Of a stretch of DNA of 39,595 nucleotides, positions 15,303 to 33,962 are shown in pieces. Below the pieces are notes generated by a model. The model was not told where the DNA came from and made no database searches. It was given only the letters and a program-made list of their open reading frames with translations. The DNA lies in NCBI GenBank assembly GCA_021413865.1, contig JAIOPN010000040.1, positions 1 to 39,595 of the forward strand, in the 5' to 3' direction. Origin of the DNA: Planctomycetota bacterium. GTDB taxonomy: Bacteria; Planctomycetota; Phycisphaerae; Phycisphaerales; Phycisphaeraceae. The translations under genes were made by a program, and so were the position numbers. The first letter of the stretch is position 1; each line of letters starts with the position of its first letter.

Positions 15303-15403
15303 TCCAGAGAGCCAAGTAATAATAGTTGTAATCAGAATTTGGGAACCGTCCGCGAATGCGCTCATGGCGGAGCGTCGCCGACCGTGGGTTACTGTGGCAT
15401 ATC

Positions 15404-15435: not shown

Positions 15436-15560
15436 TTCAAAAGAACACGCTGACGCGTCGCCGTCGTGCAAAAACACCTCTTGCCCGATCGCCACGGCAC
15501 GCTATCGTACGTCCCGCTCGCCGTCGTCCGATCCACCACCGACCCACCCACGGGACCGAC

Positions 15561-17036: not shown

Positions 17037-18086
17037 ATGGCCGGCTCAACACCACGCACGTCCGTCCGCATCAAGGGGAAGACCTACGGCGCCAGCGCCG
17101 ACAAGCTCGGTCCGATCGGCGGCGGCCGTGGGTATCGGCGGGCGGTGGCGTCCGGCGACCACCGGGTCGGCACGATCGATGAATTGCTCGCCGCGCTGGG
17201 GGCCGCCAAAGCGGGCGAGGTGATCTTTCTCGACGGCGCCGCCGAGTTTGATTTCACCGAGCGGATTGCGATCGAGAAGACAGTGCTCGACATCCCCCCG
17301 GGCGTCACGCTCGCGAGCGACCGGGGCGTACGCGGGTCGAAGGGGGCGCTGGTCTGCTCCGATACGTTCGCCACGCGCCCCTTCCTGCGCACGATGGGCG
17401 ACGGGGTGCGCGTCACCGGCATACGCCTGCGCGGCCCGGACCCCAAGGCCCGGCTGCAGCACCACCGCCGCTGCGTCGAGAAGGCCGGCCCCGACGACCA
17501 CGGGTTCAATCACAAGTACTACTACGAGTTCCCCATCTCCGACGGCGTGCACACCACGCACGACAAGCTGGAGGTAGACAACTGCGAGGTCTCCGCCTTC
17601 AGCATCGCGGGGGTGAACATCGTCCGCGGCGCGGGGCAGCACATCCATCACTGCTTCATCCACCACTGCCAGTACAACGGCCTGGGGTACGGCGTCTGCC
17701 TCGACAAGGGCGAGGCGCACATCCACCACAACCTGTTCAACTTCAACCGCCACTCCATCGCGGCGACCGGCGCGCCGGCGTCGGGCTACGAGGCGCACGA
17801 CAACGTCGAGATCGGGGCTTCGCTCTCCCACTGCTTCGACATGCACGGCGGGTCGGAACGCGGCGACGGGACGAACATCGCCGGCGACTGGCTGAAGGTC
17901 CACCACAACACGTTCCGCTCGAAGATGCGTGCGCTGGCGATCCGCGGCGTGCCCGTGAAGGGGGCGGAGGTGCACCGCAACTGGTTCTCGCACGCCGACA
18001 CGGGCGAGCCGACGATTTATACGCAGGGGAATACGGCGATCCGCGATAATGCGTGCGGGGTGAAAAAACCGGTCATCGTGAAGTGA
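17037..18086 (+). CDS. right-handed parallel beta-helix protein (pectate-lyase-like fold)
   Basis: A 349-residue protein. After a variable start comes TIDELLAALGAAKAGEVIFL, the usual entry strand of a pectate-lyase-type helix, then short repeating strands with His/Asn/Gly turns: VDNCEVSAFSIAGVNIVRG, IHHCFIHHCQYNGLGYGV, IHHNLFNFNRHSIAATG, VHHNTFRSKM, VHRNWFSHAD. The many HHN turns and the CFDMHGG segment line one face, as in polysaccharide lyases or epimerases of this fold. There is no signal peptide although most relatives are secreted. It lies first in the glycan-processing block, convergent with the barrel protein at 18132. Lyase activity is plausible but not shown. Confidence 0.75.
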   Translation: MAGSTPRTSVRIKGKTYGASADKLGPIGGGRGYRRAVASGDHRVGTIDELLAALGAAKAGEVIFLDGAAEFDFTERIAIEKTVLDIPPGVTLASDRGVRGSKGALVCSDTFATRPFLRTMGDGVRVTGIRLRGPDPKARLQHHRRCVEKAGPDDHGFNHKYYYEFPISDGVHTTHDKLEVDNCEVSAFSIAGVNIVRGAGQHIHHCFIHHCQYNGLGYGVCLDKGEAHIHHNLFNFNRHSIAATGAPASGYEAHDNVEIGASLSHCFDMHGGSERGDGTNIAGDWLKVHHNTFRSKMRALAIRGVPVKGAEVHRNWFSHADTGEPTIYTQGNTAIRDNACGVKKPVIVK

Positions 18087-18095
18087 TGATGACCC

Positions 18096-18125
18096 CACGA
18101 CTCGCGGACTCGTCATCGGGCGTGG
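18096..18125. repeat. 30-bp dispersed repeat, copy 1
   Basis: The shared core CGGACTCGTCATCGGG lies here and again in the copy at 29977-30006; 27 of 30 positions agree. Its flanks CCACG and CGTGG pair in this copy. It fills the 45-base space between the two convergent genes. Confidence 0.7.
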
Positions 18126-18131
18126 CTTCGA

Positions 18132-19613
18132 TCAAATCACGCGTACGTCGATTGAGACGACGGTGAGGGCGTCGCCGTCGTTTTCGTTGCGGACCATGAA
18201 GAGGTTGCGGCCTTCGAGGATCGCCTTGGCGGGCAGGGCCCAGGTGGCGCGTCGGCCGGCGGGGGCGTCGGGGAGGGGCGTGACCGATCGGGCCTGGCCC
18301 AGCGAGAGCCGGTTGACGTGCAGCCAGAACTGGTCGGCGGTCGCCGGCCCGCCGGTGAAGACCACATCGACCTCGATCTGGACCGATTCCGCCTCCGCGG
18401 CGAGCAGCATCTCGAACGACCGCATCGTGCCGTAGTAAAACAGCGCCGGCACATGGAACGGCCCGTCGGTTTCCGCCTGCGAGCAGCCGCACGCCAGCGT
18501 GTAGGTCTTCGTCACGCCGCGCAGTGCATCAAGATTCCGTGACTCTCCCAGCGCGGCGAAGGCGGGCTCGCACAGGTCCGGGCCCCACGCCTCCTCACGG
18601 CTGCAGAAGAAGTTGAACACCTCGATACCGTCGGCGCCGGCGGCGAGGTTGCCCGCGGCGAACCCGCGGATAAAGATCGGGTTGTTCGAGAACGTCCGGC
18701 GGGGTAGGCCCGGCCGGCGGTCGGCGATGTAGTCCGAGCAGGCGTACACCGCGACGCGGGTGCCCACGATTTTCTTGTACTCGTCCACGGGGATGCACCA
18801 GTGCGTCGTCAGGAAGGCGCCGGGCGTGATCGCGTCCACCAGCCCCTCACGCGCCCACTGCGCCACGTCGAGCCCGAGCTCGACCGCCGACGCGGGGGTC
18901 ACCGGCACGCGGGCCGTCAACGTGATAGGCCGCTTGGCCGCGGCGAGCAGCGTGCGCACCTCGCGCAGGAAGCCGCTCATCGTCGCCGTGTGGGCCGCGC
19001 CCGTTGAGCGCGGGAAGTAGCAGTGGAACCGCAGGAAGTCGAGCTCGAGCACCTCCGTGTCGTATTCCATCACCAGCTCGCGGATCAGCGTGAGGTAATA
19101 ATCGCGGACCGGTTTGAAGGCGTAGTTCAGCCCACGCGCGCTCCAGCCGGGGAACACCCCGTTGTCCAGCCAGAGCTCCGGGTGCTCCATGTAGAACCGG
19201 CTGAAGAGGTGCGTGCCGGGCGTGGGGGCGTCGTGCATGTCGTTCATACGGACGGTCACGCCGGGGGCGATGCCCTTGTGTCGGCAGCGTGCCAGCGCCC
19301 GGGCGAGGTAGTCACACCCCTGGTCCGCCAGGCTCTTCATCGACTGCACGAACCGCGCCCGGTTGGCGAACTCGCTCTCGAGCACGGGGCCGAAGAATGT
19401 GTTGTCGCCCGGCGTGTAGCCGTCCCAGAACGTCTGCCAGACACGGCTGGGGTAGCAGACCCGCTGGGCGTTGGGGTTGATGAGCATCGCGTCCGCGCCG
19501 CCGTCGGCGACCTCGTCCACCATGCGATCGACGTGCGCCGGTGTGATCGGCTCTTTCGTTATCCCGAAGAGGTTGGTGCAGTCCTGGTTGTAGAGAACGC
19601 GGTAGGGTTTCAT
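18132..19613 (-). CDS. glycosidase-like TIM-barrel protein
   Basis: A 493-residue protein. The N-terminal 330 residues look like a (beta/alpha)8 barrel of the GHL10/GH10-like superfamily: MKPYRVLYNQDCTNLFGI, GADAMLINPNAQ, CLP-like basic segment GVTVRMNDMHDAP, EVLELDFLRFHCYFP with acidic residues at strand ends, ITLTARVPVTP, and VDAITPGAFLTTHW. A C-terminal beta domain (about 390-493) with AESVQIEVDVVF resembles a carbohydrate-binding sandwich. No signal peptide. AAGGA lies 9 bases before the ATG. It is probably the last gene of the minus-strand unit from 25462, separated from the creatininase-like gene by a family B palindrome. The exact reaction is unknown. Confidence 0.7.
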   Translation of the reverse strand: MKPYRVLYNQDCTNLFGITKEPITPAHVDRMVDEVADGGADAMLINPNAQRVCYPSRVWQTFWDGYTPGDNTFFGPVLESEFANRARFVQSMKSLADQGCDYLARALARCRHKGIAPGVTVRMNDMHDAPTPGTHLFSRFYMEHPELWLDNGVFPGWSARGLNYAFKPVRDYYLTLIRELVMEYDTEVLELDFLRFHCYFPRSTGAAHTATMSGFLREVRTLLAAAKRPITLTARVPVTPASAVELGLDVAQWAREGLVDAITPGAFLTTHWCIPVDEYKKIVGTRVAVYACSDYIADRRPGLPRRTFSNNPIFIRGFAAGNLAAGADGIEVFNFFCSREEAWGPDLCEPAFAALGESRNLDALRGVTKTYTLACGCSQAETDGPFHVPALFYYGTMRSFEMLLAAEAESVQIEVDVVFTGGPATADQFWLHVNRLSLGQARSVTPLPDAPAGRRATWALPAKAILEGRNLFMVRNENDGDALTVVSIDVRVI

Positions 19614-19626
19614 GGGTGATGTCCTT

Positions 19627-19728
19627 GTTTGGGTATCCGGGTGGCTGGGGCAGAGTCTTCGATGCCCCAGTCTTTTTCGAGTGCCAAACTGGGGCTTCGC
19701 AATGCCTCAGCCCCAGCCACCCATTTCA
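19627..19728. repeat. palindromic repeat, family B, copy 2
   Basis: GGGTGGCTGGGGC (from 19639) and GCCCCAGCCACCC are inverted, with CAGAGTCTTCGATGCCC inside the left arm and CTTCGCAATGCCTCA inside the right arm. It lies in the 133-base gap between two same-strand genes and could weaken transcription into the barrel gene. Confidence 0.85.
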
Positions 19729-19746
19729 GCCTGAACGCTGCCGGTC

Positions 19747-20508
19747 TTACACCATCCACCAGTGTTCCGGGCTGACGGCCGGGAGGCGGAAGGCTCGGTG
19801 CTCCGGGGGGAGGGAGGCGAGCAGCTCGCGCGCCTTTCGGCCGATGGATTCGGCGGCGAGATGGGACTTGCGTTCGCCGACCCGGGCGGAGGCGTGGAGG
19901 CGCGGGTCGAGGCCGCCGATGCCGTCGGGCGGGTTCATGTCGGGGGCGAGCGGCCCGGTGCCGAGCTGCGTGAGGTCCACGCAACCGGGGTAGAGGTGCA
20001 TCATGTCGGAGGTTTCCCACTTGGCGGCGTGATCGGAGGCGCACTCGTCGCCGGCGGCGAGGGAGAACTCCCAGAGGCCGATGCCGGCGATGGTGCCGTC
20101 CGCGGTGGCGGGTTCGAGGGCGCGGTTGATGAGCGTGATCTGCTGGGGGATGTTGTGGCCCGATACGCCGATGATGACGCGGGCGCCCAATAGTTTGATG
20201 CGCGAGAAGAGCGAGGTCATCATCGGCAGCTTCCAGGGCTCTTCATCGGCGCGGAAGTCGGCGGTGCCGGCGACGTACCAGGCGTGGGGGAAATAGACGG
20301 GCGGGAAGACGACACCGCCGGACTCGCTCGCGCAGCGGGTGAGGATGCCGTGCGACTTGAGCGCATCGGTGCCCAGGGGCAGGTGCTGGCCGTGCCACTC
20401 GATGCAGCCCAGGGGGACATAAACGACGGGGAATTTGCGCAGCGCCGCCTCGAGCTGGCGCGGGCGGAGGAACTGCATCTGCACGTCGGTGGGGAGCGTG
20501 GCGGACAT
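19747..20508 (-). CDS. creatininase-family amidohydrolase
   Basis: A 253-residue protein of the creatininase family (PF02633), metal-dependent enzymes that open cyclic or linear amides. VPLGCIEWHGQHLPLGTDAL gives Glu37, His39 and Asp48 as metal ligands; GVSGHN gives His118, in place of the usual NGHGGN; and DHAAKWETSDMM gives Glu165 near the active site. The length is standard. No signal peptide, so cytosolic. GAGGG precedes the ATG by 7 bases. The heparinase-like gene ends 37 bases upstream, so they probably share a transcript. True creatininases act on creatinine, but many relatives act on formamides or lactam-type intermediates; substrate unknown here. Confidence 0.85.
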   Translation of the reverse strand: MSATLPTDVQMQFLRPRQLEAALRKFPVVYVPLGCIEWHGQHLPLGTDALKSHGILTRCASESGGVVFPPVYFPHAWYVAGTADFRADEEPWKLPMMTSLFSRIKLLGARVIIGVSGHNIPQQITLINRALEPATADGTIAGIGLWEFSLAAGDECASDHAAKWETSDMMHLYPGCVDLTQLGTGPLAPDMNPPDGIGGLDPRLHASARVGERKSHLAAESIGRKARELLASLPPEHRAFRLPAVSPEHWWMV

Positions 20509-20545
20509 GGGCGGCCCTCGGGGCGTGGTGGCGGAGTGTACCGCG

Positions 20546-22300
20546 TTAATGCCCGCCGTCGGAGCGACGGGCTCTTTGCAGCAGGGGCGTGGTTTTCGCG
20601 TCGTGTCGGACTTCGAGAACCAACTCGCCGTCGCTCGGCGTCGCGGTCGCGGCGGGGTAGGTCAGGGGCGCGGGGTCGGGGAGTTTGAGCAGGCCCATGC
20701 CGGTGACGAGTCCGGGACGGTGGCCCTCGGGGTCGAAGGCGGTGAGCGTTCCTTTGCTGACACGGAGGCTCGTCTGGTCGGGCCAGCGGATCGTGTCGCC
20801 GTCGCGATGCGCGGGGCCGAAGCACCACCAGCGGACAGGGGTGTCGGTGCGGCGGACGATCGTGAGACGATTGGGGCGCTCGAGTGTCACCATCTGAGAA
20901 TGGAAACCGCTTTCCGCGACACCGTTGCAGCGGATCACGGCGGATCGGCCATCGTCGTTGAGTGTGAGATCGCTGACAGGGCGGCGCGGCGGCCAGTCGG
21001 GGGTGAAATCCACGAACACCGGTCGGCCGCCGGCATGGACTACGACATCGCCGCGCCTCAGTGCCACGGCAAGGTCGCCCGGTTCGTAGGACGACCGGGC
21101 GTAGGCCTCGTTCACGTGTGTCACCGGGTTGGGGTCGGGATCGGAGAAGAGGAACGAGAGCGGCAGGCCGGGCTCGATCTTCGCTTCGACGGCGGGGTCG
21201 TACCACGCGTAGGCGTAGCCGCCCCAGGCGAAGAGCATCCATTCGCCATGCGGGGTGGAGTAGCGGGACTTGGCGAGCGCCCCGATGGCGGGGTCCCACA
21301 TCGCCATGTACTGGAGGATCGGCCGGCGGTAGTGACGGGCGAGGCAGAGCAGCGCGGGCGACGCGTAGTCGATCTGGCCATACGAGGGGCCGATGAGCCA
21401 CGACTGATGGCTCTGCGGGTACTCGTCGGTCCTCACGCCGCGGCCGACCGCGCACGCCAGCGGGACGCGGATAGGCATGTCCCGCTCGTGCTCGGCGAAG
21501 AGGTCACGCCCCGTGACGCGGCGCAGCGCGTCCATGAACGCGCAGCGGTACTGCATGATGGAAATCCAGAAGTTCGAGGTCTGGTTGTGCGTGCCGCTGG
21601 GCGTGAGCGCGTAGGGGAGGAGCCAATCGACGTGCATGCGGACGCATAGGTCGAGCCACTCCTCGGCCTCGGAGATTTCGCCGAGCAGCGCGAGCGCCGC
21701 GAGGCCTAATGAAGCGGCTTCGACGCTGCCGTGGTGCGGCTCGTATCCGAGCCCGAAATGCGTCGCGGGGTCGGCGAAGAAGGCGGAGTATTTGCCGCCG
21801 ATCTGCCGCACGGCATGGAGGATGCGGCCACGGTCTTCCGCGGTAAGCCTGTCGTGGAGGAGGTCGTAGCTGACGGCGATGCCCTTGAGCAGCCGTGTGA
21901 CGGCGTAGGCCTTGCCCGCGTCGGCGTCGCCCTCGGCCTCGCGGCCCCAGACGTCGCACAGGGCCAGCGCCCAGGCGCGGGCGGCATCGAAATACCTCGT
22001 TTCACCGCTGTAGGCGTAGGCGAAGGCCAGGTGTTCGGCGACCGCCATGTCGTGCATCATGCCGTAGAAGCGGTCGTAGAGGTTTTCGTGGATCGGGTCC
22101 GGCGAGAGCGGCGCGATCCACCGCGTGCGCGGCGGGCGGGAGAGGCACCAGTCGGCGGAGCGGCGGAGGTTCTCCCAGATGCGGGCGTGGAAGCCCTCGG
22201 CGCGGAGCGTGCGCAGGCGGGCGAGTTCGTCGCGGGTGAAGAAGAGCCTGGGGTGGCCGGTGACGCGCGGGTCCATCCGTCGTTGCATGGGTCGGTTCAC
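20546..22300 (-). CDS. heparinase II/III-like (DUF4962-type) protein
   Basis: A 584-residue protein. The N-terminal 300 residues form an alpha/alpha-toroid: HPRLFFTRDELARLR is the classic opening of DUF4962/heparinase II/III proteins, followed by GKAYAVTRLLKGIAVSYDLLHDRL, HFGLGYEPHHGSVEA and THNQTSNFWISIMQYR, where the Asn, His and Tyr residues of the catalytic cleft usually lie. The C-terminal half is a beta-sandwich (LAVALRRGDVVVHAGG, SAVIRCNGVAE). Known relatives are uronic-acid polysaccharide lyases. There is no signal peptide, whereas most relatives are exported. The GTG at 22300 overlaps the upstream TGA (GTGA); ATGs at 22288 and 22276 are alternative starts. Activity is inferred. Confidence 0.8.
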   Translation of the reverse strand: MNRPMQRRMDPRVTGHPRLFFTRDELARLRTLRAEGFHARIWENLRRSADWCLSRPPRTRWIAPLSPDPIHENLYDRFYGMMHDMAVAEHLAFAYAYSGETRYFDAARAWALALCDVWGREAEGDADAGKAYAVTRLLKGIAVSYDLLHDRLTAEDRGRILHAVRQIGGKYSAFFADPATHFGLGYEPHHGSVEAASLGLAALALLGEISEAEEWLDLCVRMHVDWLLPYALTPSGTHNQTSNFWISIMQYRCAFMDALRRVTGRDLFAEHERDMPIRVPLACAVGRGVRTDEYPQSHQSWLIGPSYGQIDYASPALLCLARHYRRPILQYMAMWDPAIGALAKSRYSTPHGEWMLFAWGGYAYAWYDPAVEAKIEPGLPLSFLFSDPDPNPVTHVNEAYARSSYEPGDLAVALRRGDVVVHAGGRPVFVDFTPDWPPRRPVSDLTLNDDGRSAVIRCNGVAESGFHSQMVTLERPNRLTIVRRTDTPVRWWCFGPAHRDGDTIRWPDQTSLRVSKGTLTAFDPEGHRPGLVTGMGLLKLPDPAPLTYPAATATPSDGELVLEVRHDAKTTPLLQRARRSDGGH

Positions 22301-23574
22301 TTGCGGTTGCGCTCGGCGACGGCGCGGACGATCTGGACGGCGGTGGCGCAGTGCTCGTCGGTGTACTTGTCGCAGACGGTGACCCAGCGGATGAAGGTGT
22401 CGAGGAATGCAGCGGCGGTGGGGCAGTTGTCGGCGGAGTATTTGTAGCCGTGCGCGGTCGGGGGCGTGGAGAAGGGGTAAGTCTGGCTGGCGGCCATCTC
22501 CTGGAGGAAGGTGAGCGCGGCGGGCATGAGGTAGTAGCGAGCGGTGCCGGCGCCGGGGAGGCCCATCGCGTCACACTGTTGGGCGAACTCATCGACCGTG
22601 CAGGTGAAGGCGGTGGGGTCGATATTGAAGCCGAGCATCCAGCAGGAGTAGGTGTCGAGGTATTTGGGGATGGGCAGCGGGATGACGCCGGGGATTTTGG
22701 CGAGGCCGGAGGTGATGAGGCGGGCGATGCGGTCGCGGCGTTGGACGTTTTCGTGGACGATTTCGAGCTGCGCGAGAGAAATGGCGGCGGTGCAGAGGGG
22801 CATGCGGTGGGCGTAACCGGCGGCGGAGTGGATGCGGCCGAAGCCCGGTCGCATCTCCGCGCCGCGGCTGTGGCCGATGAAGCGTGCGTAGGAGGCCAGG
22901 TCGTCGTCGTTGGTCACGAGGCAGCCGCCGGTGTCGGAGCCCATGGTTTTTTCGGAGTCGAAGGAGAAGCCCGCGGCGTGGCCGAGCGTGCCGGCGAGCC
23001 GCCCCTTGTATCGGCCCATGACGGCCTGGCAGCAGTCTTCTATAACGATGAGCCCATGCTTCTTCGCGAGCGCGTTGATCGGGTCCATGTCGCAGATGAT
23101 GCCGGTCTTGTGCACGACGACGACCGCGCGGGTGCGACCGGTGATGCAGGGCTCGATGGTCTTGGCGCTGAGATTGATACTGCCCGGCGCGGTATCGGCA
23201 AAGACGGGGATGATGTCTTCCTTGATGAAACCCATGAGGGTTCCGTAGTCGGTGACGGGGCTGAAGATTACTTCGTCGCCGGGCTTGAGGCGGAGTGACG
23301 CGGCGAGCACGGCCAGCGCGGGTGTGCAGCCGGGGGTGGCGATGCAGTGTTTGACGCCGACAGTTTTGGCGAAGGCGGCCTCAAAGCGCTCGGTCATGTT
23401 GCAGGTCAGCCCGCTATCGACGACCTCCTTGAGATAGGCCATAGCGTTGCCGCCGATATGGCGCGGGAAGGGCGTGGGGATTTTTCCGCTAAGGCCTTCG
23501 TAGGCGGCGGCGCCGAACTTGGCGCGGTTGGTTTTCGCTCGCGGTGGCTTGGTGGCGGTGCGTTTGGCGTTCAT
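22297..23574 (-). CDS. DegT/DnrJ/EryC1/StrS-family PLP aminotransferase
   Basis: A 425-residue PLP enzyme of the sugar-aminotransferase family, which normally installs amino groups on keto-sugars. Visible residues: SGLTCNMTERFEAAFAK and VKHCIATPGCTPALAVLAAS (cofactor phosphate region), VIEDCCQAVMG with Asp180 and Gln183, and FSFDSEKTMGSDTGGCLV with the Schiff-base Lys209. The start is ATG 23574, which overlaps the upstream gene's TGA (ATGA) and is preceded by AAGGAAGAAGGG; the longer open frame upstream is the neighbour's reverse reading. It is odd to find this usually biosynthetic family inside a lyase/amidase/deacetylase unit. A dehydrating or cofactor-variant activity is also possible in this family. 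Confidence 0.88.
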   Translation of the reverse strand: MNAKRTATKPPRAKTNRAKFGAAAYEGLSGKIPTPFPRHIGGNAMAYLKEVVDSGLTCNMTERFEAAFAKTVGVKHCIATPGCTPALAVLAASLRLKPGDEVIFSPVTDYGTLMGFIKEDIIPVFADTAPGSINLSAKTIEPCITGRTRAVVVVHKTGIICDMDPINALAKKHGLIVIEDCCQAVMGRYKGRLAGTLGHAAGFSFDSEKTMGSDTGGCLVTNDDDLASYARFIGHSRGAEMRPGFGRIHSAAGYAHRMPLCTAAISLAQLEIVHENVQRRDRIARLITSGLAKIPGVIPLPIPKYLDTYSCWMLGFNIDPTAFTCTVDEFAQQCDAMGLPGAGTARYYLMPAALTFLQEMAASQTYPFSTPPTAHGYKYSADNCPTAAAFLDTFIRWVTVCDKYTDEHCATAVQIVRAVAERNRK

Positions 23575-24467
23575 CCCTTCTTCCTTGCGGGTGGTGAGGT
23601 TTTGGACGGCCCGCGGGCGTGGTGCGCGGGGGTGACGGGCTTGATGACCTCGCCGTAAAGCTCCGGCCGTCGCGTCTTGAAGAACGTCTCGCGCATGGTG
23701 GGGTACTCGTTGAGCATTTTGCCCTGGTACCACATCGGGTAGGTCTGATCGAGGTCCACCTCCGCGACCGCCACGCCCGGGAAGTGCCCCGTATCGGCGC
23801 GGACACGGCCCATGCAGTCGATGACCCTGCTGCGGCCGTAGCTCCTGCCGACCAGGTAGGGCAACTGGATGTAGTGGCTGCAGACGAAGAAGGCCTGGTT
23901 GTCGATGGCGCGGGCGTTGACGAGCGATTCGATGAGGTCGCCGGTGTAGTCCATCGCACCGCTGGGCCAGAAGATGACCTCCGCGCCGCGCAGCGCCAGG
24001 GCGGTGTAAAGCTCGGGGTAGTGGATGTCCATGCAGATGGTGACAGCGATGCGGCCAAAGTCGGTCTCGAAAACGGGCAACTCGTCGCCGGGGAGGAACT
24101 TCTCCCCCTCGCCGTGGCCCGGCAGGCAGAGGTGCGTCTTGCGGTAACGGCCGGCGATGCGCCCCTTGCGGTCGATCAGCACGGCGGTGTTGTAGGGCTT
24201 GTCACGCCCGTTCTCCTCCACCAGTGGCGTGATGACGAACATTTCATATTTGGCGGCGAGTCTCGCAAACTCCTCCGTGACCGGCCCGGGGACCGGGGTG
24301 GCGGACCACTGGCCATTGACGCAGTCCGAGCCGACGTACTCGGGCAGGCAGACGATGTCCGCGCCACGCTCGCCCGCCTCCTCCACCAGCCGCAGCGCCT
24401 GTGCGCGCTGCGTCTTGCTGAAGTCCGTCTCGACCGAACACGTCGCGATCTTCACGCGCCTGGTCAT
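23571..24467 (-). CDS. carbon-nitrogen hydrolase (nitrilase superfamily)
   Basis: A 298-residue cytosolic amidase-type enzyme. The full catalytic triad is present: Glu43 (CLPEYVG), Lys110 (RYRKTHL) and Cys145 (VTICMDIHYPE). The pattern fits aliphatic amidase or N-carbamoyl amidohydrolase branches rather than nitrilases, but the subfamily cannot be set by eye. AAGGAG lies 8 bases before the ATG. It overlaps by 4 bases both the upstream deacetylase (24464-24467) and the downstream aminotransferase (23571-23574), so translation is coupled. The C-terminal tail is basic (GPSKTSPPARKKG). Together with the creatininase-like gene it gives this unit two C-N bond hydrolases. Confidence 0.9.
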   Translation of the reverse strand: MTRRVKIATCSVETDFSKTQRAQALRLVEEAGERGADIVCLPEYVGSDCVNGQWSATPVPGPVTEEFARLAAKYEMFVITPLVEENGRDKPYNTAVLIDRKGRIAGRYRKTHLCLPGHGEGEKFLPGDELPVFETDFGRIAVTICMDIHYPELYTALALRGAEVIFWPSGAMDYTGDLIESLVNARAIDNQAFFVCSHYIQLPYLVGRSYGRSRVIDCMGRVRADTGHFPGVAVAEVDLDQTYPMWYQGKMLNEYPTMRETFFKTRRPELYGEVIKPVTPAHHARGPSKTSPPARKKG

Positions 24468-25462
24468 TGTGCGACTCCTTGATCCCCGCTGATCCGCAGC
24501 GTGCGCGGCCGGGAAAGGTCAACGTCGATCAGCAACAGCGGGCCGCGTTTGACGATCTCCACGCGCCGGCCGTCCACGTCCGCGGCCCGAGTCCCCTCCG
24601 GCAGCTCGAGGGTCACCGTACGCTTCCGCACCGCCGGGTGCAGCCCCGGCACGGCGACCGTGAACTCGCCGGCTCGCCCGGGCACGGCCTCGATCTTCGC
24701 CGCGCGGCGGGTATAGCGGTAGTCCACCGCCTCCTCGACCCGCGCCGCCCAGAGGTCCTCTCCGCCCTCGGCACGCACCGTCTCGATCCGCTCGCGGAGT
24801 TGGGCCGCCGAGCAGTCCTTGTTCGGGTGGACCGGTTGTTCGAGCGGGCAGTGCAGGTAGTCGATGATCCAGCCCCGGTCGCGCCGCGCGTGCGGGATGT
24901 TGCGGAAGGGGTCGAACTCGGAATAGAAAGGCGCGTAGCCCTGCGTGTGCAGGAAGGTGCGGTTGATCCAGAGCAGGTCGGCGTCTTCGGGCCGGTTAAG
25001 GGCGTCCGTAAGGCTCATCGCGCCCAGGTAACCGAACCGCCGGCAGGCCGCGAGCGCCCCGTCGTTCATATTGCTGTTGTCGCCCGAGGAGCAGTAGATG
25101 GTGATCGGTTCGCCAATCGCCTCTTCGAGCACCTCTTTGGCCCTGCCCAACTCCAGGTCGGCGGTCTGCGCGTTGGTCGCCTCGTGCGACCACGAATGAT
25201 TGCCCACGCCCCAGCCGCGCGCCAGCATCTCGCGCAATTCGTCGGGGCCCATGTGTTTGAAGCCGTTGTAGCTCGACGCGCCGATCTTCCGCACCTGCCC
25301 CATCTGGCCGACGACGACTTCCAGGTGCCCCGGTACGCGGAACTCGTCGAGGATGGGGATGGCGAACCGGTGCAGGTCGCTGAGCGCCTCGTCGAAGGTG
25401 ATCGAGTAAACCCACCGCTTGCCCCCGGGCCAGGGAGAGACCGTGACGCGCAGTTCCTGCAT
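24464..25462 (-). CDS. polysaccharide-deacetylase (NodB-fold) protein
   Basis: A 332-residue NodB-homology protein. YSITFDEALSD gives Asp24 as the catalytic base/metal ligand and GNHSWSHEA gives the metal ligands His89 and His93; the usual TFDD is TFDE here. A GYAPFYSEFDPFRNIPHARR segment and a C-terminal beta domain (from about 255) complete the protein. No signal peptide, so it would deacetylate a soluble cytosolic substrate rather than cell-surface polymer. The ATG at 25462 is preceded by GGAGG about 7 bases upstream; a longer upstream frame without a ribosome site was discarded. It is the promoter-proximal gene of the minus-strand unit and is divergent from the sulfatase. Confidence 0.85.
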   Translation of the reverse strand: MQELRVTVSPWPGGKRWVYSITFDEALSDLHRFAIPILDEFRVPGHLEVVVGQMGQVRKIGASSYNGFKHMGPDELREMLARGWGVGNHSWSHEATNAQTADLELGRAKEVLEEAIGEPITIYCSSGDNSNMNDGALAACRRFGYLGAMSLTDALNRPEDADLLWINRTFLHTQGYAPFYSEFDPFRNIPHARRDRGWIIDYLHCPLEQPVHPNKDCSAAQLRERIETVRAEGGEDLWAARVEEAVDYRYTRRAAKIEAVPGRAGEFTVAVPGLHPAVRKRTVTLELPEGTRAADVDGRRVEIVKRGPLLLIDVDLSRPRTLRISGDQGVAQ

Positions 25463-25703: not shown

Positions 25704-27071
25704 ATGCCCAAACGCCCCAACATCCTGTTCATCCTCAGCGACCAGCAGCGGTGGGACACTGTCAGTTGCTACGGGCAACCTCTGGGCGCGGACCTGAACC
25801 TGACGCCGAACCTGGACCATATGGCCGCGCTGGGCTTGCGGTTCAACCTCGCGTTCACCATGCAGCCGGTCTGCGGGCCGGCGCGGTCCTGTCTTCAGAC
25901 GGGCCTCTACGCTACGCAGACCGGGTGCATCAACAACAACGTCGCGCTGCCGCTCAACGCCAACACCATCGCGCGGCAGTTCACCGTCGGTGGGTACGAG
26001 ACGGCGTACATCGGCAAGTGGCATCTGGCGTCGGACAAGCAGAACGAGTACGACATCAAGGCCATCCCGCCCGAGCGCCGCGGCGGGTACCAGGACCACT
26101 GGCTGGCCGCCGACATCCTCGAGTTCACCAGCCACGGGTACGAGGGCTACATGTACGACGGCCAGGGCCGGCGCGTGGACTTCGAGGGGTACCGCGCCGA
26201 TGCGACCGCCAACTTCGTCATCGACTACCTGAACCAATACGCCGCGCGGCGGAGCGATCGGCCGTTCTTCTGCTTCGCCTCCTTCATCGAGCCGCACCAC
26301 CAGAACGACCTGGACCGCTTCGTGGGCCCGATCGGCTCCAAGCAGCGTTTCGCGCGGTACACCGTGCCCGGCGATCTCGTGGGCACGACACCCGAGCCGG
26401 GCCGGCGCTGCGACTGGCCCCAGCACATGCCCGACTACCTGGGCTGCTGCTCGAGCCTGGACCAGAACGTGGGCCGCATCCGCGAAACGCTCGAGAGGCT
26501 CGGCCTGGCGGACGACACGCTGGTGATCTACACCAGCGACCACGGCTGCCACTTCTGCACGCGCAACAAGGAGTACAAGCGGTCGTGCCACGAGAACTCG
26601 ATCCGCGTGCCGATGATCGCCTGCGGCCCGGGCTTCACGGGCGGAAGGGTCGTCGATGACGCGCTGGTCAGCCTGATCGACCTGCCGCGGACGGTGCTGA
26701 CGGCCGGGGGCATCGAGCCGCACGCCGCGATGCGCGGCCGGGCGCTGCAGGAGGTCGTCAACGGCGCCCCTGCCGACTGGCCCGATGACGTCTATGTGCA
26801 GATCAGCGAGTCGCAGGACGGCCGGGCGATCCGCACCGCGCGGTGGAAATACGGCGTGGACAACCCCGATCGGCACACAATCCCGGGGCCGGCGCGCCGC
26901 TTCGTCGAGCAGTATCTCTACGACCTGAACGCCGACCCCCACGAGCGGGAGAACCGCGTGGCGGACCCGTCGTTGGCTGGCGTCCGCGACGAGCTCGCTC
27001 AACGGCTCAAGCGCCGCATGGCCGAGACGGGCGAACCCGAGGCCGCGATCGAACCGGCGGCGCGGGTGTGA
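25704..27071 (+). CDS. formylglycine-dependent sulfatase
   Basis: A 455-residue type I sulfatase that removes sulfate esters. The modification motif is VCGPARSCLQTG, a CxPxR core with Cys57, Pro59 and Arg61; the cysteine would be converted to formylglycine by a separate enzyme not in this window. Metal ligands include Asp13 (LSDQQRWD) and Asp279-His280 (YTSDHGCHF); GKWHL at about residues 109-113 is the usual lysine/histidine segment. No signal peptide, so cytosolic or delivered otherwise. AAAGG lies 5-6 bases upstream of the ATG. It is divergent from the deacetylase unit and likely acts in the same pathway on a sulfated sugar. Confidence 0.9.
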   Translation: MPKRPNILFILSDQQRWDTVSCYGQPLGADLNLTPNLDHMAALGLRFNLAFTMQPVCGPARSCLQTGLYATQTGCINNNVALPLNANTIARQFTVGGYETAYIGKWHLASDKQNEYDIKAIPPERRGGYQDHWLAADILEFTSHGYEGYMYDGQGRRVDFEGYRADATANFVIDYLNQYAARRSDRPFFCFASFIEPHHQNDLDRFVGPIGSKQRFARYTVPGDLVGTTPEPGRRCDWPQHMPDYLGCCSSLDQNVGRIRETLERLGLADDTLVIYTSDHGCHFCTRNKEYKRSCHENSIRVPMIACGPGFTGGRVVDDALVSLIDLPRTVLTAGGIEPHAAMRGRALQEVVNGAPADWPDDVYVQISESQDGRAIRTARWKYGVDNPDRHTIPGPARRFVEQYLYDLNADPHERENRVADPSLAGVRDELAQRLKRRMAETGEPEAAIEPAARV

Positions 27072-27076
27072 TTTCC

Positions 27077-27113
27077 GCCGATGTCCCCGGCTCCACCTGC
27101 GGCTATGGGATCA
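27077..27113. repeat. degenerate family A palindrome
   Basis: CCCCGGCTCCACCTGCGGCTATGGGAT keeps the right end of family A (GGCTATGGGAT), but the left end is eroded. It occupies nearly all of the 39-base gap between the convergent sulfatase and MBL genes. Confidence 0.5.
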
Positions 27114-28961
27114 GAACATCTCGCCGCCGACCGTCATTAGCGCCTCGGCGACCTGGCCGAAGAGTTGCTCCCCGATGCGCAGGTCCACGGCGAAGGGTTG
27201 CCTGCGGCATGGGCCCGCGGGGGTGATGCGCATCGTCGTGGTCACTTCGGCGCGGGCCGGGGCGTCGAGCGTCACGCTCGTGCCCTTCCATCCGTCGGGG
27301 CCGACGAGGGTGAGTTCAAGCTTCGCCGGGCGCGGCAGCGGGTTGCGCACGGTGACCGTCACCTCCGCCGGTCCCGCCTTGGGCAGGTGCGTGCGGTAGG
27401 GCCATATCCAGCCGCCCCAACTGTCGAGATCGAAGTGCGCCTCGTCCGCGCCCAGCGGCATCACCTTTTCGTGCAGCGTGCGGTAGTCGTGGACCCACTG
27501 CTCGATGTGTTTGAAGAACTCCGCATCGGTAAAGAATGGGGGCTGGTGGCCCTGGATGACGATGTCCGGCCGCCAGTCGAGCATCCACCCGGCGCTCTGC
27601 TCGTAGCCGTCGAGCAGGGCGCCGTTGCGGTAAACGTGGTTCTGCAGGCGGCGGCGTTTTGTCCAGGGGGTTTTGTGGTCGCCGAAGTCCAGGAAGAAGT
27701 ATTGATCGCCGGTGTGGGCGTAGCGTTTGCCGTCGGCCTCGAAGCCGATCAGCGCGGAGAAGCGCGTGTGGCCGGTCATCGGGGCGAAGTGGAAGGTGTA
27801 CTCCTCCCACTGGACCTTTTCATTGAGGGGGATGCGGCGGTCGATCGTGATCTTCTGCGGCCAGTTGCAGGGGAAGCAGTGGGCCTCGGGGTGTTCGAGC
27901 AGGTGGGCGAAGTTTTTCGCGGCCCAGGCCCTGGTGCCGAACAGGCGTTGCAGCAGCGGGATGCCGCAGACGTGGTCGTCGTGGAAGTGGCTGATGAGGA
28001 CGGTGTCGATGCGGTCGATGCCGAACTGCTGTTTGAGGCCCTCGATGCCGTGCAGCAGCGGTCGGCGGTGGGGCGGGTTGGGGTAGCTTGGAAAGGACAT
28101 CACGCCCGCGAAATAGCCGTAGTCGATGACCAGCGCCTTGCCGGACTTGCTGACGACGTACCAGTTGAGGCTGCTCGACTCGGTGTCGCGCCAGACGTGG
28201 TCGGTGACTTTCTCCAGCGCGTGGTTGCCGACCTGCTTGATCATCTCCGGCAGGCCGTGGCGGACATCGCACATGGCGCGGAGGGAGTCCTGCGTGGCGG
28301 CGAGGGCGGCGTCGGCGTCGCGGAGGATCGGCGTGCCGAGGCTGGGCATCAGGGCGGTGGGTTTGTGGTCGCGGAGCTGTTGCAGCGACCAGTAGGTGTT
28401 GGTCGCGCCGCCCAGGTCGTTGTAGTTGTATTGGTAGGGCGCGACGCGCGGGACCTTGCCGGGCGAGTGGATCGTCTCGCCGCAGAAGACGACGCGGCCG
28501 GCCGGCAGCTCGACCGACAGGCCGACCTGCGTGAGCGTCGCGCCGGGCAGAGGCAGCACGTGGACCTTCAGGCCCGCGAGCGTGGTGGTGTCGTAGTCGA
28601 GCAAATCCCCGGCCACGGGCACGCCCTGGATCGGGGCGTAGAGGTTCCAGAGGTTGTCGTAGATGATGTAGGTCTCGCGGCGGCGGAAATGCTCGGCGGG
28701 GTCGGCGAATATCTCACGCTCGTAGGCGGGCACGAAAACGGGGATACCCCTGCGCGAGGCGGGGAGAGCCCCGGCGGCGTGGTCGCGGAAATAGTGGGTG
28801 CAGGCCAGCGCGGCGGGGGCGGCTGGCAGCTCATTCAGATGGTCCACCCACGCGCCGGTGCCCGCGTCGATGATGAGCATGCCCGTCGGGCCGTGGACCG
28901 CGTAAACATTGCAGCTATCGGGGAAGAGCCAGACGCCGGGGATGACGGGTTGCCACTTCAT
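27111..28961 (-). CDS. tandem metallo-beta-lactamase-fold protein
   Basis: A 616-residue protein with two MBL-type domains. The first (about 1-240) has LIIDAGTGAWVDHL and CTHYFRDHAAG, where His56, Asp60 and His61 are kept but the middle His of HxHxDH is Phe; GETIHSPG follows. The second (about 255-500) has VLISHFHDDHVCG, a perfect HxHxDH at 325-330, then MTGHTRFS, HTGDQYF and IQGHQPPF, the remaining ligands. The C-terminal 110 residues form a CARDB-like beta-sandwich (EVTVTVRNPLPRPAKLELTL). The first domain is thus probably metal-poor or structural and the second is a hydrolase. No signal peptide. AGGAA is 8 bases before the ATG. Substrate unknown. Confidence 0.82.
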   Translation of the reverse strand: MKWQPVIPGVWLFPDSCNVYAVHGPTGMLIIDAGTGAWVDHLNELPAAPAALACTHYFRDHAAGALPASRRGIPVFVPAYEREIFADPAEHFRRRETYIIYDNLWNLYAPIQGVPVAGDLLDYDTTTLAGLKVHVLPLPGATLTQVGLSVELPAGRVVFCGETIHSPGKVPRVAPYQYNYNDLGGATNTYWSLQQLRDHKPTALMPSLGTPILRDADAALAATQDSLRAMCDVRHGLPEMIKQVGNHALEKVTDHVWRDTESSSLNWYVVSKSGKALVIDYGYFAGVMSFPSYPNPPHRRPLLHGIEGLKQQFGIDRIDTVLISHFHDDHVCGIPLLQRLFGTRAWAAKNFAHLLEHPEAHCFPCNWPQKITIDRRIPLNEKVQWEEYTFHFAPMTGHTRFSALIGFEADGKRYAHTGDQYFFLDFGDHKTPWTKRRRLQNHVYRNGALLDGYEQSAGWMLDWRPDIVIQGHQPPFFTDAEFFKHIEQWVHDYRTLHEKVMPLGADEAHFDLDSWGGWIWPYRTHLPKAGPAEVTVTVRNPLPRPAKLELTLVGPDGWKGTSVTLDAPARAEVTTTMRITPAGPCRRQPFAVDLRIGEQLFGQVAEALMTVGGEMF

Positions 28962-29066
28962 CGCATCGCTTCCTGTGACATGAGCGAGCGGTCGTTATAA
29001 CACGGGCGGCGCACATTTGATTTGTTCTCCTCCCTGAGAGGAAGGGGATTTCAAAAGGGATTCGTG

Positions 29067-29960
29067 ATGGCACGCACACGGGATCGCAATCCGATGACGG
29101 AGCTCTCGGCCGCGCGGCCGCTCCGGGTGTTCACCATGAACATCTGGAACTTCGACGGGCCGTATGAGAAGCGGCAGAAGCTCCTGCGCGCGGGAATCCG
29201 CAAGCTCGACCCGGACCTCCTGGCGTTTCAGGAGGCGGGGCGCGACGGCAAGCGGGACCAGGTCGGCGACCTGCTCGAGGGCATGGGCTACCACGTCATG
29301 CACCAGTTCGAGGCGCCGGGTTCGCAGCCCGGGCGCGACGGCTGCTGCGTGGCCAGCCGCTGGCCGTTCGAGCTCCTCGAGGTGCTGCCGCTGGGGCCGA
29401 AGTATTACGCGGCGGTGGCGGTGCGGGTCGCCGCGCCCGAGCCGGTGGGGCCGATGGTCTTCGTCTGCCCCAAGCCGGCGTGGGAGCTGAACCGGGAACG
29501 CGAGCGCGAGTTGCAGGCGGTGGCGCTCGACGCGCTGGTCCGCCGGCACGCACGCCGCGCCGAGTTCCCCACCGTTATCGCCGGCGATTTCGACGCCACC
29601 CCGGACAGCGCCAGCATCCGGTTCCTGACCGGGATGCAGTCGTTGGAGGGCAGGAGTACGCAGTACCTCGACGCATGGCAGCAGGCGGGCGGCGCGTCGG
29701 CCGGCTACACGTGGAGCTACCGCAACGGCTTCGCGGCCGCGATCATCGACCAGTGTGTCCGCCAGCCGCGCCACGAGCGGCGCATCGATTACATCTTTCT
29801 CGGTTCGCCGCACGACCACGCGCGCTTCGCCCGTGTGCGTGCATGTCGTGTCGTGCTGGACAAGCCCGTGGCGGGGGTCTGGCCGAGCGATCACTACGGG
29901 GTTTATGCGGAGATCGAGGTTGTGCCGGGGGCTAAGAAGAATTTGACGCGACGACGGTAG
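29067..29960 (+). CDS. endonuclease/exonuclease/phosphatase (EEP)-fold protein
   Basis: A 297-residue protein of the EEP fold (phosphodiesterases, DNases, sphingomyelinases). Visible: FTMNIWNF with Asn25, LLAFQEAG with Glu56 (metal ligand), VIAGDFDATPDS with the catalytic Asp (usually GDFN), RRIDYIFLG, and WPSDHYGVYAEI with the SDH histidine. The central THL-type histidine is replaced: the segment reads MVFVCPKPAWELNRERERELQ. The active site is therefore mostly, not completely, conserved. No signal peptide. The ATG at 29067 has AAAGGGA 7 bases upstream; the frame extends to a TTG at 29022 without better support. It heads a plus-strand run with the PHP and sialidase-like genes. Confidence 0.82.
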   Translation: MARTRDRNPMTELSAARPLRVFTMNIWNFDGPYEKRQKLLRAGIRKLDPDLLAFQEAGRDGKRDQVGDLLEGMGYHVMHQFEAPGSQPGRDGCCVASRWPFELLEVLPLGPKYYAAVAVRVAAPEPVGPMVFVCPKPAWELNRERERELQAVALDALVRRHARRAEFPTVIAGDFDATPDSASIRFLTGMQSLEGRSTQYLDAWQQAGGASAGYTWSYRNGFAAAIIDQCVRQPRHERRIDYIFLGSPHDHARFARVRACRVVLDKPVAGVWPSDHYGVYAEIEVVPGAKKNLTRRR

Positions 29961-29976
29961 CGGGGTGGCGGACCTC

Positions 29977-30006
29977 GACGACTCACGGACTCGTCATCGG
30001 GAGTGG
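29977..30006. repeat. 30-bp dispersed repeat, copy 2
   Basis: Second copy of the sequence at 18096-18125, sharing CGGACTCGTCATCGGG, 27 of 30 identical. It lies between the EEP and PHP genes, which run in the same direction, 16 bases after the EEP stop codon. Confidence 0.7.
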
Positions 30007-30059
30007 TAAGAGTGGTTATATACTCCACAACCCCCGGGCGACCGTGCGGCGGAGACGGC

Positions 30060-30956
30060 ATGATCCGAATCGAACACCCGTATCACGACTTGGCCGGCGG
30101 CCGGTGGCTACGCGGCAACCTTCACGCGCACACCCTCCGCAGCGATGGCGAACGCGGGCCGGACGAGGTGATCGCCGACTACGCACGGCGCGGCTACGAC
30201 TTTCTGGCCATCACCGATCACGACATCACGACGACGGCAGAAGAGTGCGCCGCGTGGACCGCCGCACACGGCCTCGTGCTCATCCCGGGCAACGAGGTCA
30301 CGGCGGGCGGCCCGCACCTGCTGCACGTCGGTGCGGCGCGACACGTCGAGGCGCACACGGATCGGCAAGCGGTCATCGACAGGATCGCGGGCGGCGACGG
30401 GAACGCCGGCGGTTTTGTCGTCGTCAACCACCCCAGCTCCCACGCGAACTTCGACCAGTGCCCGATCGCCCTGATGCGGGCATGGACCGGCTACACCGGG
30501 ATCGAGATTTTCAACGGCGTCGCGGGGCGCGCGGACGGGAGCGACTACGCGCTGAACAAGTGGGACATGCTGCTCGCCGAGGGGCGGCGCGTCTGGGGGT
30601 TCGCCAACGACGATGCGCACGCGGCGGAGGGCGACGTCGAGCTGGGGTGGAACGTGGTCAACACCCCGTCGTGCACGCCGGAGGCCATAGTCGCCGCGCT
30701 CCGCGCCGGGCGGTTTTACGCCTCCACCGGCGTGACGATCGAGGCGGTCCATGTCGGCGATGACACGATCCGCATCGAGACCCGGGATGCCCAGCGGATT
30801 AATGCGCTGATGAACACCGGCCGGCGGTTCGCGCGGTCGGATGGCCGCGCAATCCAGGTGCGCGTGCCGGCCGATGCGACATACGTGCGGTTCGAGTGCT
30901 GGGGCGCCGGTGAGAGTTTTGCGTGGACGCAGCCGTTCTTCGTGACGCGGTCTTGA
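30060..30956 (+). CDS. PHP-domain phosphoesterase
   Basis: A 298-residue PHP protein, probably hydrolysing a phosphoester with a trinuclear metal site. Motif I is GNLHAHTLRSDG (His22, His24), motif II ITDHDI (Asp53, His54), motif III PGNEVT (Glu79), then VVVNHPSSH at about 135-143 and FANDDAHA at about 199-206, so all PHP metal ligands are present. The C-terminus (from about 225) is a beta domain with GRFYASTGV, as in PHP proteins with a carbohydrate-binding-like tail. GGAG lies 5-6 bases before the ATG at 30060. The next gene starts 5 bases after its stop. No signal peptide. Confidence 0.87.
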   Translation: MIRIEHPYHDLAGGRWLRGNLHAHTLRSDGERGPDEVIADYARRGYDFLAITDHDITTTAEECAAWTAAHGLVLIPGNEVTAGGPHLLHVGAARHVEAHTDRQAVIDRIAGGDGNAGGFVVVNHPSSHANFDQCPIALMRAWTGYTGIEIFNGVAGRADGSDYALNKWDMLLAEGRRVWGFANDDAHAAEGDVELGWNVVNTPSCTPEAIVAALRAGRFYASTGVTIEAVHVGDDTIRIETRDAQRINALMNTGRRFARSDGRAIQVRVPADATYVRFECWGAGESFAWTQPFFVTRS

Positions 30957-30960
30957 ACCA

Positions 30961-32370
30961 TTGACCACCAACCACCCATCAGCACCGTCGCCCACGGGCA
31001 TCACGCACGTCACGCGCGACCGTCTGCTGCTCTCCGCTCCGCCGGACCGGGCCGCGGAGGGGGTGCTGCGTTACGCGGTCGGGTTCCCGTTCCAGGCCGG
31101 CCCGCGCACGATGGGGATCATGGCGATGCGGACGATCGAGGCAACGCCGAACTACGGTCACCTCGACGGCTCCGACGTGATATTGCTCGACGGCCTCGCA
31201 CCGCCGCGGCCCGGCCAGGTCTTCGCCGCCACGCGCAACGAGGTCGAGCCCGGCGTCGGCGGCGCTCCCGCGCGGCTGATCCTCAAGGGGCCGCTGCTGG
31301 GCGGTTTCGTCCCGTTGGGCGCGCTGCGTGCCGACGGCTCGCCGCACCCGCACGCCGGCACGGGCTTCGGCATCGGGCAGGCGCAGCGGTTCCCGTTCAT
31401 CGACGGCCGGTTCAGTTGGGGCGACCCGCAACGCATCGACATGAACGAGGTCTATCAGCTCGCGTACGAGGGAAAGAGCTTCACGACGAGGCTCTCCCGA
31501 CGTGACATGCAGAACAGCGGCGAGCCCCTGCGCATCGGCGATACGGATTGGGCTGTGCTCACCGACTCCTTCTCGACGCCGATCCCCGACGGCGACGACC
31601 TGCTGCTGGCCTCGATCACGGCGCGGATGGATCGCTCGGCGGTGGGCGTCGGCGTGGTGCGCTGGGCGCGGCGCGGCGGCGCGTGGGGGCCGGTGGATTA
31701 CGACCCGGTCGAGGTCACGCAGGGCCCGGTGCCCGAGGGGCCCAACCCGAAGGAGCGCTGCCCATGGATGGAGCCGAGCCTGGCACGCGACGCGGACGGC
31801 ACGCTGCTGCTGGCGGCGCGCGGGGCGGACACGTTCCACGACGCGGGGCCGGGGGCCACGGGGTATCTGCTGCGCGTCTGGCGGTGGGCGGGTGTCGGGA
31901 GATGGGAGGTCGCGGTGGACGCGCCGACCATGCGGCTCAACTCACCGGTGACGGTCAGCGTCGCCGCCGACGGCTCGGCGTACCTGATCTCCAACCCGTA
32001 CGACCGCGCGTTCATCCCCGAGACGGATCAGACCGGGCGGGGGCGCGAGAAGATGGTTCTCTGGCCGTTGAACACGGCGCGGAGCGGCGTGCTGCCCGCG
32101 CTGCAGGTGCGTGACTGCCTGGGCGAGTTCGGCCCGCCGCCGACGCTCGGCGCGGCGGGCCAAGTGCCGGAGAAGTGGATGGTCGACCACGCCAACGGGG
32201 GGACGGTCCGCCTGGCGGATGGCCGGTGGCGGCATGTGCTCTGCTACCGCATCTGCCACTACCCGCGCTACCGCAACCACGGCACGCCGCCGTCACCGCA
32301 CAACGGCTGCGCGGTCGAAGAGGTCGTGACGACGGGCCCGGCGCGGGGGGTGTGGCGGTTCGCGGAGTGA
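30961..32370 (+). CDS. sialidase-like beta-propeller protein
   Basis: A 469-residue protein with the sequence character of the exo-alpha-sialidase/BNR-propeller superfamily: repeated blades with aromatic-rich turns, CPWMEPSLARDADGTLLLAARG (the EPSL...DGxL...R segment conserved in these proteins, with Glu and Arg that often bind the acid sugar), VVRWARRGGAWG, and SPVTVSVAADGSAYL. No signal peptide. The start is uncertain: TTG 30961 is the best candidate, 5 bases after the PHP stop; no ATG lies before the conserved core. Tight spacing implies co-transcription with the PHP gene. Sialidase activity is not proven; the fold also serves other glycosidases and lyases. Confidence 0.72.
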   Translation: MTTNHPSAPSPTGITHVTRDRLLLSAPPDRAAEGVLRYAVGFPFQAGPRTMGIMAMRTIEATPNYGHLDGSDVILLDGLAPPRPGQVFAATRNEVEPGVGGAPARLILKGPLLGGFVPLGALRADGSPHPHAGTGFGIGQAQRFPFIDGRFSWGDPQRIDMNEVYQLAYEGKSFTTRLSRRDMQNSGEPLRIGDTDWAVLTDSFSTPIPDGDDLLLASITARMDRSAVGVGVVRWARRGGAWGPVDYDPVEVTQGPVPEGPNPKERCPWMEPSLARDADGTLLLAARGADTFHDAGPGATGYLLRVWRWAGVGRWEVAVDAPTMRLNSPVTVSVAADGSAYLISNPYDRAFIPETDQTGRGREKMVLWPLNTARSGVLPALQVRDCLGEFGPPPTLGAAGQVPEKWMVDHANGGTVRLADGRWRHVLCYRICHYPRYRNHGTPPSPHNGCAVEEVVTTGPARGVWRFAE

Positions 32371-33956: not shown

Positions 33957-33962
33957 GCGTAC

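Follow-up and report, generated by a model that had tools for sequence, protein, structure and literature searches.

The window analysed here is a 39,595-nucleotide contig (C30) of a Planctomycetota bacterium whose genome assembly comprises 4.37 Mb on 67 contigs. Between positions 17037 and 32370 it contains twelve coding genes, numbered B01 to B12 from left to right. Four of these (B07, B06, B05 and B04) encode a NodB-type deacetylase, a carbon–nitrogen hydrolase, a DegT-family aminotransferase and a lyase-fold protein. As read from the sequence, they form an operon coupled by 4-base overlaps, whose enzymes have no visible export signals. B03 is probably the next gene of the operon, perhaps followed by B02. 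Quite possibly the module acts in the cytosol, where it would strip a short oligosaccharide or an amino sugar of acyl or amide groups and of an amine. This role in breakdown, for which we infer the substrate, the direction and the uptake, is the reading that we prefer, tentatively. A preliminary description had placed all twelve genes in one pathway; what remains of that is a rare, recurring four-gene module, of which no published description was found in open-licence PubMed Central.

Arrangement and occurrence of the core module

Each of the junctions B07/B06, B06/B05 and B05/B04 on the minus strand is a 4-base overlap. B03 follows 37 bases after B04, and B02 133 bases after B03. The tight core appears to be a real unit, given that these uncommon genes are found together again in distant bacteria.

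The genomes compared were 151 relatives, a 392-genome sample of the window's phylum and 14 genomes of the phylum of genome G512. The searches scored a limited number of first-look candidates, 4–5 per genome in the 392-genome sample and up to 8–16 for B04, B05, B07 and B09 in the 151, and absences hold at that depth. The B07 subfamily, the B05 subfamily and B04 are each found in the same three of the 151 genomes (G000, G017 and G078), with B05 scores of 805, 601 and 557 bits and the next at 232. The query genome is always counted, and the chance of sharing the other two of 150 is 1 in 11,175 per gene pair, by arithmetic that treats the genomes as unrelated. G078 entered the set via B02 and then B04, and is included in two of the three profiles. 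No profile held G017, which is therefore the cleaner case of co-occurrence. Its genes lie on three contigs (C99, C249 and C251), 2.6–5.9 kb from contig ends, so they could be close together on the chromosome.

In the 392-genome sample B05 is found in three genomes (at E 1e-70) and B07 in two (at 1e-25). A scan of named genomes with B05 turned up three loci, each beside B06 and B07 homologues and each in a record titled Candidatus Omnitrophota; the B05 identity is 64–65% for the two complete genes, the third being cut by a contig end. B07 is present in five of the 14 genomes of the phylum of G512, and B05 (>360 bits) in four of those five and none of the other nine, that of G514 being counted as two contig-end pieces.

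The order of the genes varies. The window has B07-B06-B05-B04-B03, and in G078 B05-B04-B07 are consecutive, with enolase-superfamily and lactonase-family genes as neighbours. B06-B07-B05 are contiguous in G512, G513, G514 and G523, the last a relative of the Omnitrophota-titled metagenome-assembled genomes; the first three probably represent one event, since their flanks are alike by eye. In G017 B07 and B06 are adjacent (75% and 70% identity), with B05 and B04 elsewhere. B07 and B05 of G506 are ∼5 kb apart on opposite strands, accompanied by isochorismatase-fold, Gfo/Idh and DUF4838 genes. B05 of G209 adjoins an enolase-superfamily gene, and B07 of G524 lies beside an isochorismatase-fold gene. 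Two further features were seen at these loci. The gene adjoining the B07 relative of G506 (L060:4549-6405, minus strand) fuses an isochorismatase-fold domain to a lectin-like (Laminin_G_3) domain and has an apparent signal peptide. At L137:9550-13805 the B04 relative of G017 overlaps the upstream gene, a large glycosidase by eye.

Phylogenetic trees of B07 and B05 place the window differently. The B07 tree groups it with G017 and G078 (100/100), and the B05 tree with G209, G523, G512 and G513 (100/99). Constraining the window B05 to group with G017 and G078 was rejected (approximately unbiased p-value, p-AU, 3e-38), as was constraining its B07 to group with G512, G513 and G523 (p 0.001); these p-values are not strict, because the groups were chosen in the light of a first tree. 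The conflict could have arisen by transfer or by old paralogy. It follows that the set has been kept or rebuilt, and not merely inherited as a block.

The enzymes of the core

Asp24, Glu25, His89 and His93 of B07 are invariant in eight sequences, and the two histidines are those expected to bind the metal in this family. B07 resembles the CE4/NodB polysaccharide deacetylases in its Pfam match, its NodB fold, both metal histidines and an acidic MT1 motif. It differs from them in having Glu for the second Asp of MT1, in lacking the MT3 Arg and in having no visible export signal. The structure model (predicted local confidence, pLDDT, 86.7) has the NodB fold, and is closest to the unassigned structure 4dwe (Z 20.9 over 293 residues, root-mean-square deviation 5.0), followed by PuuE (rank 5, Z 17.4), ArnD and peptidoglycan deacetylases. 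The comparison of folds does not discriminate between these, and B07 has no NCBIfam match.

B06 resembles amidases of the nitrilase superfamily, for example N-carbamoylputrescine amidase and β-ureidopropionase. Glu43, Lys110 and Cys145 are invariant in three relatives and are presumably the catalytic triad. The protein falls below the NCBIfam equivalog cut-offs of the named enzymes of this superfamily (best 87 versus 410 bits).

B05 matches the DegT/DnrJ/EryC1/StrS family well above the Pfam cut-off (220.3 versus 19.8 bits). Lys210 (alignment numbering), invariant in five relatives, is presumably the lysine that binds pyridoxal phosphate (PLP). Among named NCBIfam models WecE and ArnB match it best, far below the equivalog cut-offs (152.7 versus 375 and 146 versus 631 bits, respectively).

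The nearest solved relative of B04 is Atu3025 (3a0o), matched over residues 12–271 with E 1.3e-18 by profile and 5.5e-12 by single sequence. Like the PL15 oligo-alginate lyases and exo-heparinases (Atu3025, 3a0o; 6lja), B04 keeps the catalytic His311, aligned with its His189, and the G078 relative also has His; it differs from them in that the catalytic acid Tyr365 is aligned with Phe. The PL15 catalytic residues are named in the available text of PMC11921355 and PMC12088678, the former stating that the Tyr is needed for activity. The structure model of B04 is too weak for use (mean pLDDT 59.9).

B03 lies below the equivalog cut-offs for creatininase (47.4 versus 235 bits), MftE (37 versus 172) and IolN (26.4 versus 245). 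None of B01–B10 reaches the NCBIfam cut-off of any named enzyme.

Export signals and neighbouring genes

The genes, called from open reading frames (ORFs), codon-position GC content and Pfam, are listed in Table 1. Their codon-position GC pattern matches that of real genes. The family names given in the preliminary description are supported by Pfam for B01 to B11, B01 and B11 below cut-off and B02 only at the E-value listed. The label of B12 as sialidase-like is not supported, since no Pfam family was matched.

Table 1. Genes of the 17037–32370 stretch, and the DUF4838 gene to its left
Gene	Assignment	Place	Position	Strand	Basis
B01	right-handed beta-helix protein	neighbour	17037..18086	+	PF13229, E 5.5e-5, below cut-off
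B02	GHL10-like barrel	possible operon member	18132..19613	-	PF02638, E 0.025 only
B03	creatininase-family hydrolase	probable operon member	19747..20508	-	PF02633, E 1.4e-22
B04	DUF4962, PL15-like (alpha/alpha) lyase-fold protein	core	20546..22300	-	PF16332, E 1.2e-9
B05	DegT-family PLP aminotransferase	core	22297..23574	-	PF01041, E 5.8e-65
B06	carbon-nitrogen hydrolase	core	23571..24467	-	PF00795, E 1e-44
B07	NodB/CE4-fold deacetylase	core; first gene of operon	24464..25462	-	PF01522, E 5.6e-11 on longer ORF
B08	sulfatase	neighbour, divergent from B07	25704..27071	+	PF00884, E 6e-50
B09	double metallo-beta-lactamase-fold protein	neighbour	27111..28961	-	PF00753, E 2.6e-21; second domain is the strong one
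B10	EEP	neighbour	29022-29960	+	Pfam
B11	PHP-like	neighbour	30003-30956	+	Pfam, below cut-off
B12		neighbour	30961-32370	+	no Pfam family
	DUF4838 protein	left of stretch	11331..13172	+	PF16126, E 4.6e-107

The strands and spacings of the genes indicate five transcription units or more, comprising B01, B07 to B02, B08, B09 and B10–B12, the last with spacings of 42 and 4 bases. A purine-rich stretch lies 7–9 bases 5′ of the starts of B01 (ribosome-binding site GGAGG, 7 bases from the ATG), B02, B03, B05, B06, B07 and B09. There is none before B04, B08, B10, B11 and B12, and the start codons of B10–B12 are consequently uncertain. B08 contains the sequence C-x-P-x-R, which we take to be the sulfatase motif; the description of the substrate as sulfated has this gene as its sole basis. 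An antisense ORF at 17046-18116 was rejected as the beta-helix gene, as the Pfam match belongs to the plus-strand ORF.

None of the twelve proteins has an N-terminal signal at its annotated or alternative starts, either by a Sec/lipoprotein score or by another scan, which looked for Tat motifs and charge-free stretches; this bears out the preliminary description. The starts scored were the annotated ones and others in frame, upstream to the previous stop and 40–50 codons downstream. The Sec/lipoprotein score is home-made and less sensitive than SignalP, and it missed the Tat leader of locus L076. It did score all five control proteins of the window, which have signals or membrane starts, and the second scan scored two controls taken from relatives. 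Charge-free stretches flagged in B03 and B09 lie, by position, inside catalytic domains. The leaderless genes extend to the left of 17037, to 7049-7939, 9567-11192 and the DUF4838 gene; signals were found at 8032-9546 and 13320-14444.

Leaders were also counted among homologues in the fetched regions, omitting those whose match begins after query residue 60; outside B01–B12 the DUF4838 gene was the only window gene counted, and L077 repeats L054. They were flagged for B01 in two of four, for B04 in one of two (the relative of G017, with a lipoprotein-type leader) and for DUF4838 in all four. The leaderless B01, B04 and DUF4838 proteins therefore depart from their relatives. The counts are 2/14 for B02 (one of the 14 being cut at its 5′ end), 0/11 rows for B05, 0/4 for B06 and 0/6 for B09. 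Relatives of these are mostly leaderless too. One of nine B07 rows has a Tat leader (L076 of G524; Pfam TAT_signal below cut-off). The absence of signals is thus only partly special to this stretch, and the expectation that relatives of the lyase, helix and sulfatase families are exported holds for B04 and B01, as also for DUF4838 and one B07, but not for the sulfatase B08 (0/2). Two observations stand beside these counts. A distant B09 relative (L111) looks lipoprotein-like by eye and was missed by the score. The window's own genome contains a B01 paralogue (L036:9233-11131, contig C11) that carries a signal peptide and, N-terminally, an additional domain, carbohydrate-binding by eye.

The outer genes have a different distribution from the core. 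B02 relatives occur in 14 of the 151 genomes, the window's own included, B09 matches in 11 and B01 in four. Nineteen fetched regions cover 20 of the 45 listed places of B02 outside the window, and a 20th contains the B01 paralogue; none of the 20 carries B04–B07. Nor do B01 and B09 relatives have adjacent B04–B07 in the fetched regions, the exception being G007, where a distant DegT gene (29%) lies 7 kb away from the B01 relative. Linkage of B03 and B02 to the core was not seen outside the window. G025 has B01, B08-like and B11-like genes within 15 kb (L109), and B02, B09-like and DUF4838 genes within ∼5 kb (L033). Some of the outer genes may therefore form a guild of their own, although we give the grouping little weight because sulfatases are common. 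In the regions fetched from relatives, B01, B02 and B09 are thus scattered and unlinked with respect to the core, while B04–B07 are not. With at least five transcription units, the twelve genes are not one conserved pathway, and on the evidence of these regions a pathway joining B01, B02 and B09 to the core is rejected.

The B01 relatives of G017 (L108:8338-10455) and G007 (L110:8513-10558) are extended at the N terminus by a domain of ∼280 residues that by eye is isochorismatase-like and has no Pfam name; the pair share 51% identity from end to end. A link of this N-terminal part to the isochorismatase proteins of L060 and L076 was rejected, there being no BLAST match at 1e-3.

Within the block we saw neither a sugar transporter nor a regulator, in keeping with the preliminary description. 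A Na+/H+ antiporter-family gene (PF07399, E 1.3e-168) lies directly upstream of B01 on the same strand, called at 15276-16835 with a likely start at 15561. No SusC/SusD-type importer pair is present among the 22 window genes scanned with Pfam, a subset of the window ORFs. An island borne on a tRNA was rejected, as the tRNA-Gly end has no exact repeat longer than 12 bases in the window, and in a scan for RNA elements only the tRNA reaches the gathering score. A role in defence was likewise set aside, with no PADLOC match at E 0.001 for B03, B05–B07 and B09–B12. Further away, 33220-33974 (minus strand) contains a HigB-type toxin gene (PF09907, E 9.9e-24) and an HTH antitoxin-like gene, both matching the PADLOC PD-Lambda-2 A and B models. 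Between 35759 and 38400, nuoC-like (minus) and nuoB-like (plus) genes, by eye, flank a TrkH-like transporter gene on opposite strands, an unusual layout for these subunits. At 1540-4098 (minus strand), ∼20 kb from the core, lies by eye a chain-length determinant/tyrosine kinase of exopolysaccharide synthesis.

Possible roles of the module

The combination of three amide-type hydrolase families and an aminotransferase suggests that nitrogen substituents are removed. B07 would remove an N-acyl group, B06 (and B03) would hydrolyse a further amide or cyclic amide, and B05 with PLP would transfer the released amine onto or off a keto group. B04 would handle a uronic-acid-type oligosaccharide, and the sugar skeleton would then enter general metabolism. 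A sugar context is suggested by the PL15-like B04 and by neighbouring genes in G078 and G209 (enolase superfamily) and G506 (Gfo/Idh). A nutrient is favoured as the substrate over a nucleotide sugar by the leaders that B04 of G017 and B07 of G524 carry. The remaining genes of the stretch are treated here as neighbours. Intracellular breakdown or remodelling of a glycan, as first proposed, agrees with the lack of export signals and the export of some relatives; its extension to twelve genes does not stand.

A number of observations weigh against cytosolic breakdown. The characterised DegT enzymes are known from biosynthesis. The usual MT3 Arg is absent from that stretch of B07 and five relatives, and the MT3 Pro, kept only in the Omnitrophota and G506 rows, is missing from the proteins of the window, G017 and G078. 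The catalytic Tyr365 of Atu3025 aligns with Phe244 of B04 (in one pairwise alignment), and the relatives in G078 and G017 likewise have Phe in this motif. B07 occurs without B05 in G524 and B05 without B07 in G209, B06 is absent beside the core in G078, and B03 and B02 are unlinked to it elsewhere. No importer was found in the stretch. Judged by eye, glycosyltransferase and ABC-exporter genes adjoin B05 of G017, glycosyltransferases adjoin the B06-B07-B05 trio of G512, and exporter genes follow ∼5 kb after B05 in G506.

The neighbours in these last three genomes fit the main alternative, a biosynthetic module, which we consider rather unlikely. B05 would make an amino sugar and B07 and B06 would trim N-substituents for a surface glycan, in the manner of ArnB (DegT) and ArnD (NodB). 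That WecE and ArnB are the best named matches of B05, both far below cut-off, and that ArnD is among the fold matches of B07, accord with this. However, the core has no nucleotide-sugar enzyme, B04 is lyase-like with an exported relative, the Tat leader on B07 of G524 misfits a cytosolic nucleotide-sugar or lipid-linked substrate, and the contexts in G078 and G209 look catabolic. The ArnB and ArnD enzymes of lipid A modification likewise pair a DegT with a NodB enzyme; here, by contrast, B07 has no NCBIfam match and B05 none at cut-off, and the partners are an amidase and a lyase-like protein.

It is improbable that the genes are a loose assemblage of catabolic functions in which even the core has no shared pathway. 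The relatives of B01, B02 and B09 away from the core, the different histories seen in the trees, and the variation of order and membership among genomes speak for such a collection. The overlapping starts with ribosome-binding sites at B05–B07, the presence of B07, B05 and B04 in the same 3/151 genomes and the recurrence in a second phylum argue against it.

Least probable is a route for ureides or cyclic imides, involving no glycan, in which B07 would act like the NodB-fold allantoinase PuuE, B06 like β-ureidopropionase, and B05 would transaminate the product. The likenesses of B06 noted above, PuuE as a fold match of B07, the cyclic-amide hydrolase family of B03 and the isochorismatase-fold gene next to or near B07 in G506 and G524 point this way, the isochorismatase fold including N-carbamoylsarcosine hydrolase. 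Reductive pyrimidine and hydantoin catabolism uses a cyclic-amide hydrolase, a ureidopropionase-like enzyme and an aminotransferase, all also found here, but the enzyme subfamilies differ and the context here is one of sugars; B04 and the sugar-acid neighbours misfit. According to the available text of PMC10967932, PuuE does not depend on a metal, and the NodB1.2 group to which it belongs has no Ser/Thr ahead of the second His, whereas B07 and its relatives keep both His and, in the rows shown, Ser or Thr at that position.

Returning to cytosolic breakdown, a more specific form of it is possible but doubtful. In this a mobile catabolic module would have its DegT enzyme running degradatively. 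Together with a NodB deacylase in the cytosol, an amidase and a lyase-fold protein whose chemistry is altered, this enzyme would take the nitrogen substituents off an amidated amino-uronic sugar, and in some lineages the same job would have moved across the membrane (B04 of G017, B07 of G524). The stretch resembles Planctomycetota gene clusters for carbohydrate-active enzymes (CAZymes) and selfish uptake in its clustered carbohydrate-type enzymes, and differs in that its enzymes lack signals. In the available text of PMC11131199 more than half of the CAZymes carry signals in most Planctomycetota representatives, and in that of PMC5520146 imported polymer remained outside the riboplasm.

Genomes of this kind contain many carbohydrate genes without known pathways, and a small, rare set that is reshuffled across phyla offers a practical entry point of four proteins. 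If the breakdown reading is correct, amidated amino sugars would be dismantled in the cytosol, and DegT enzymes would serve breakdown too.

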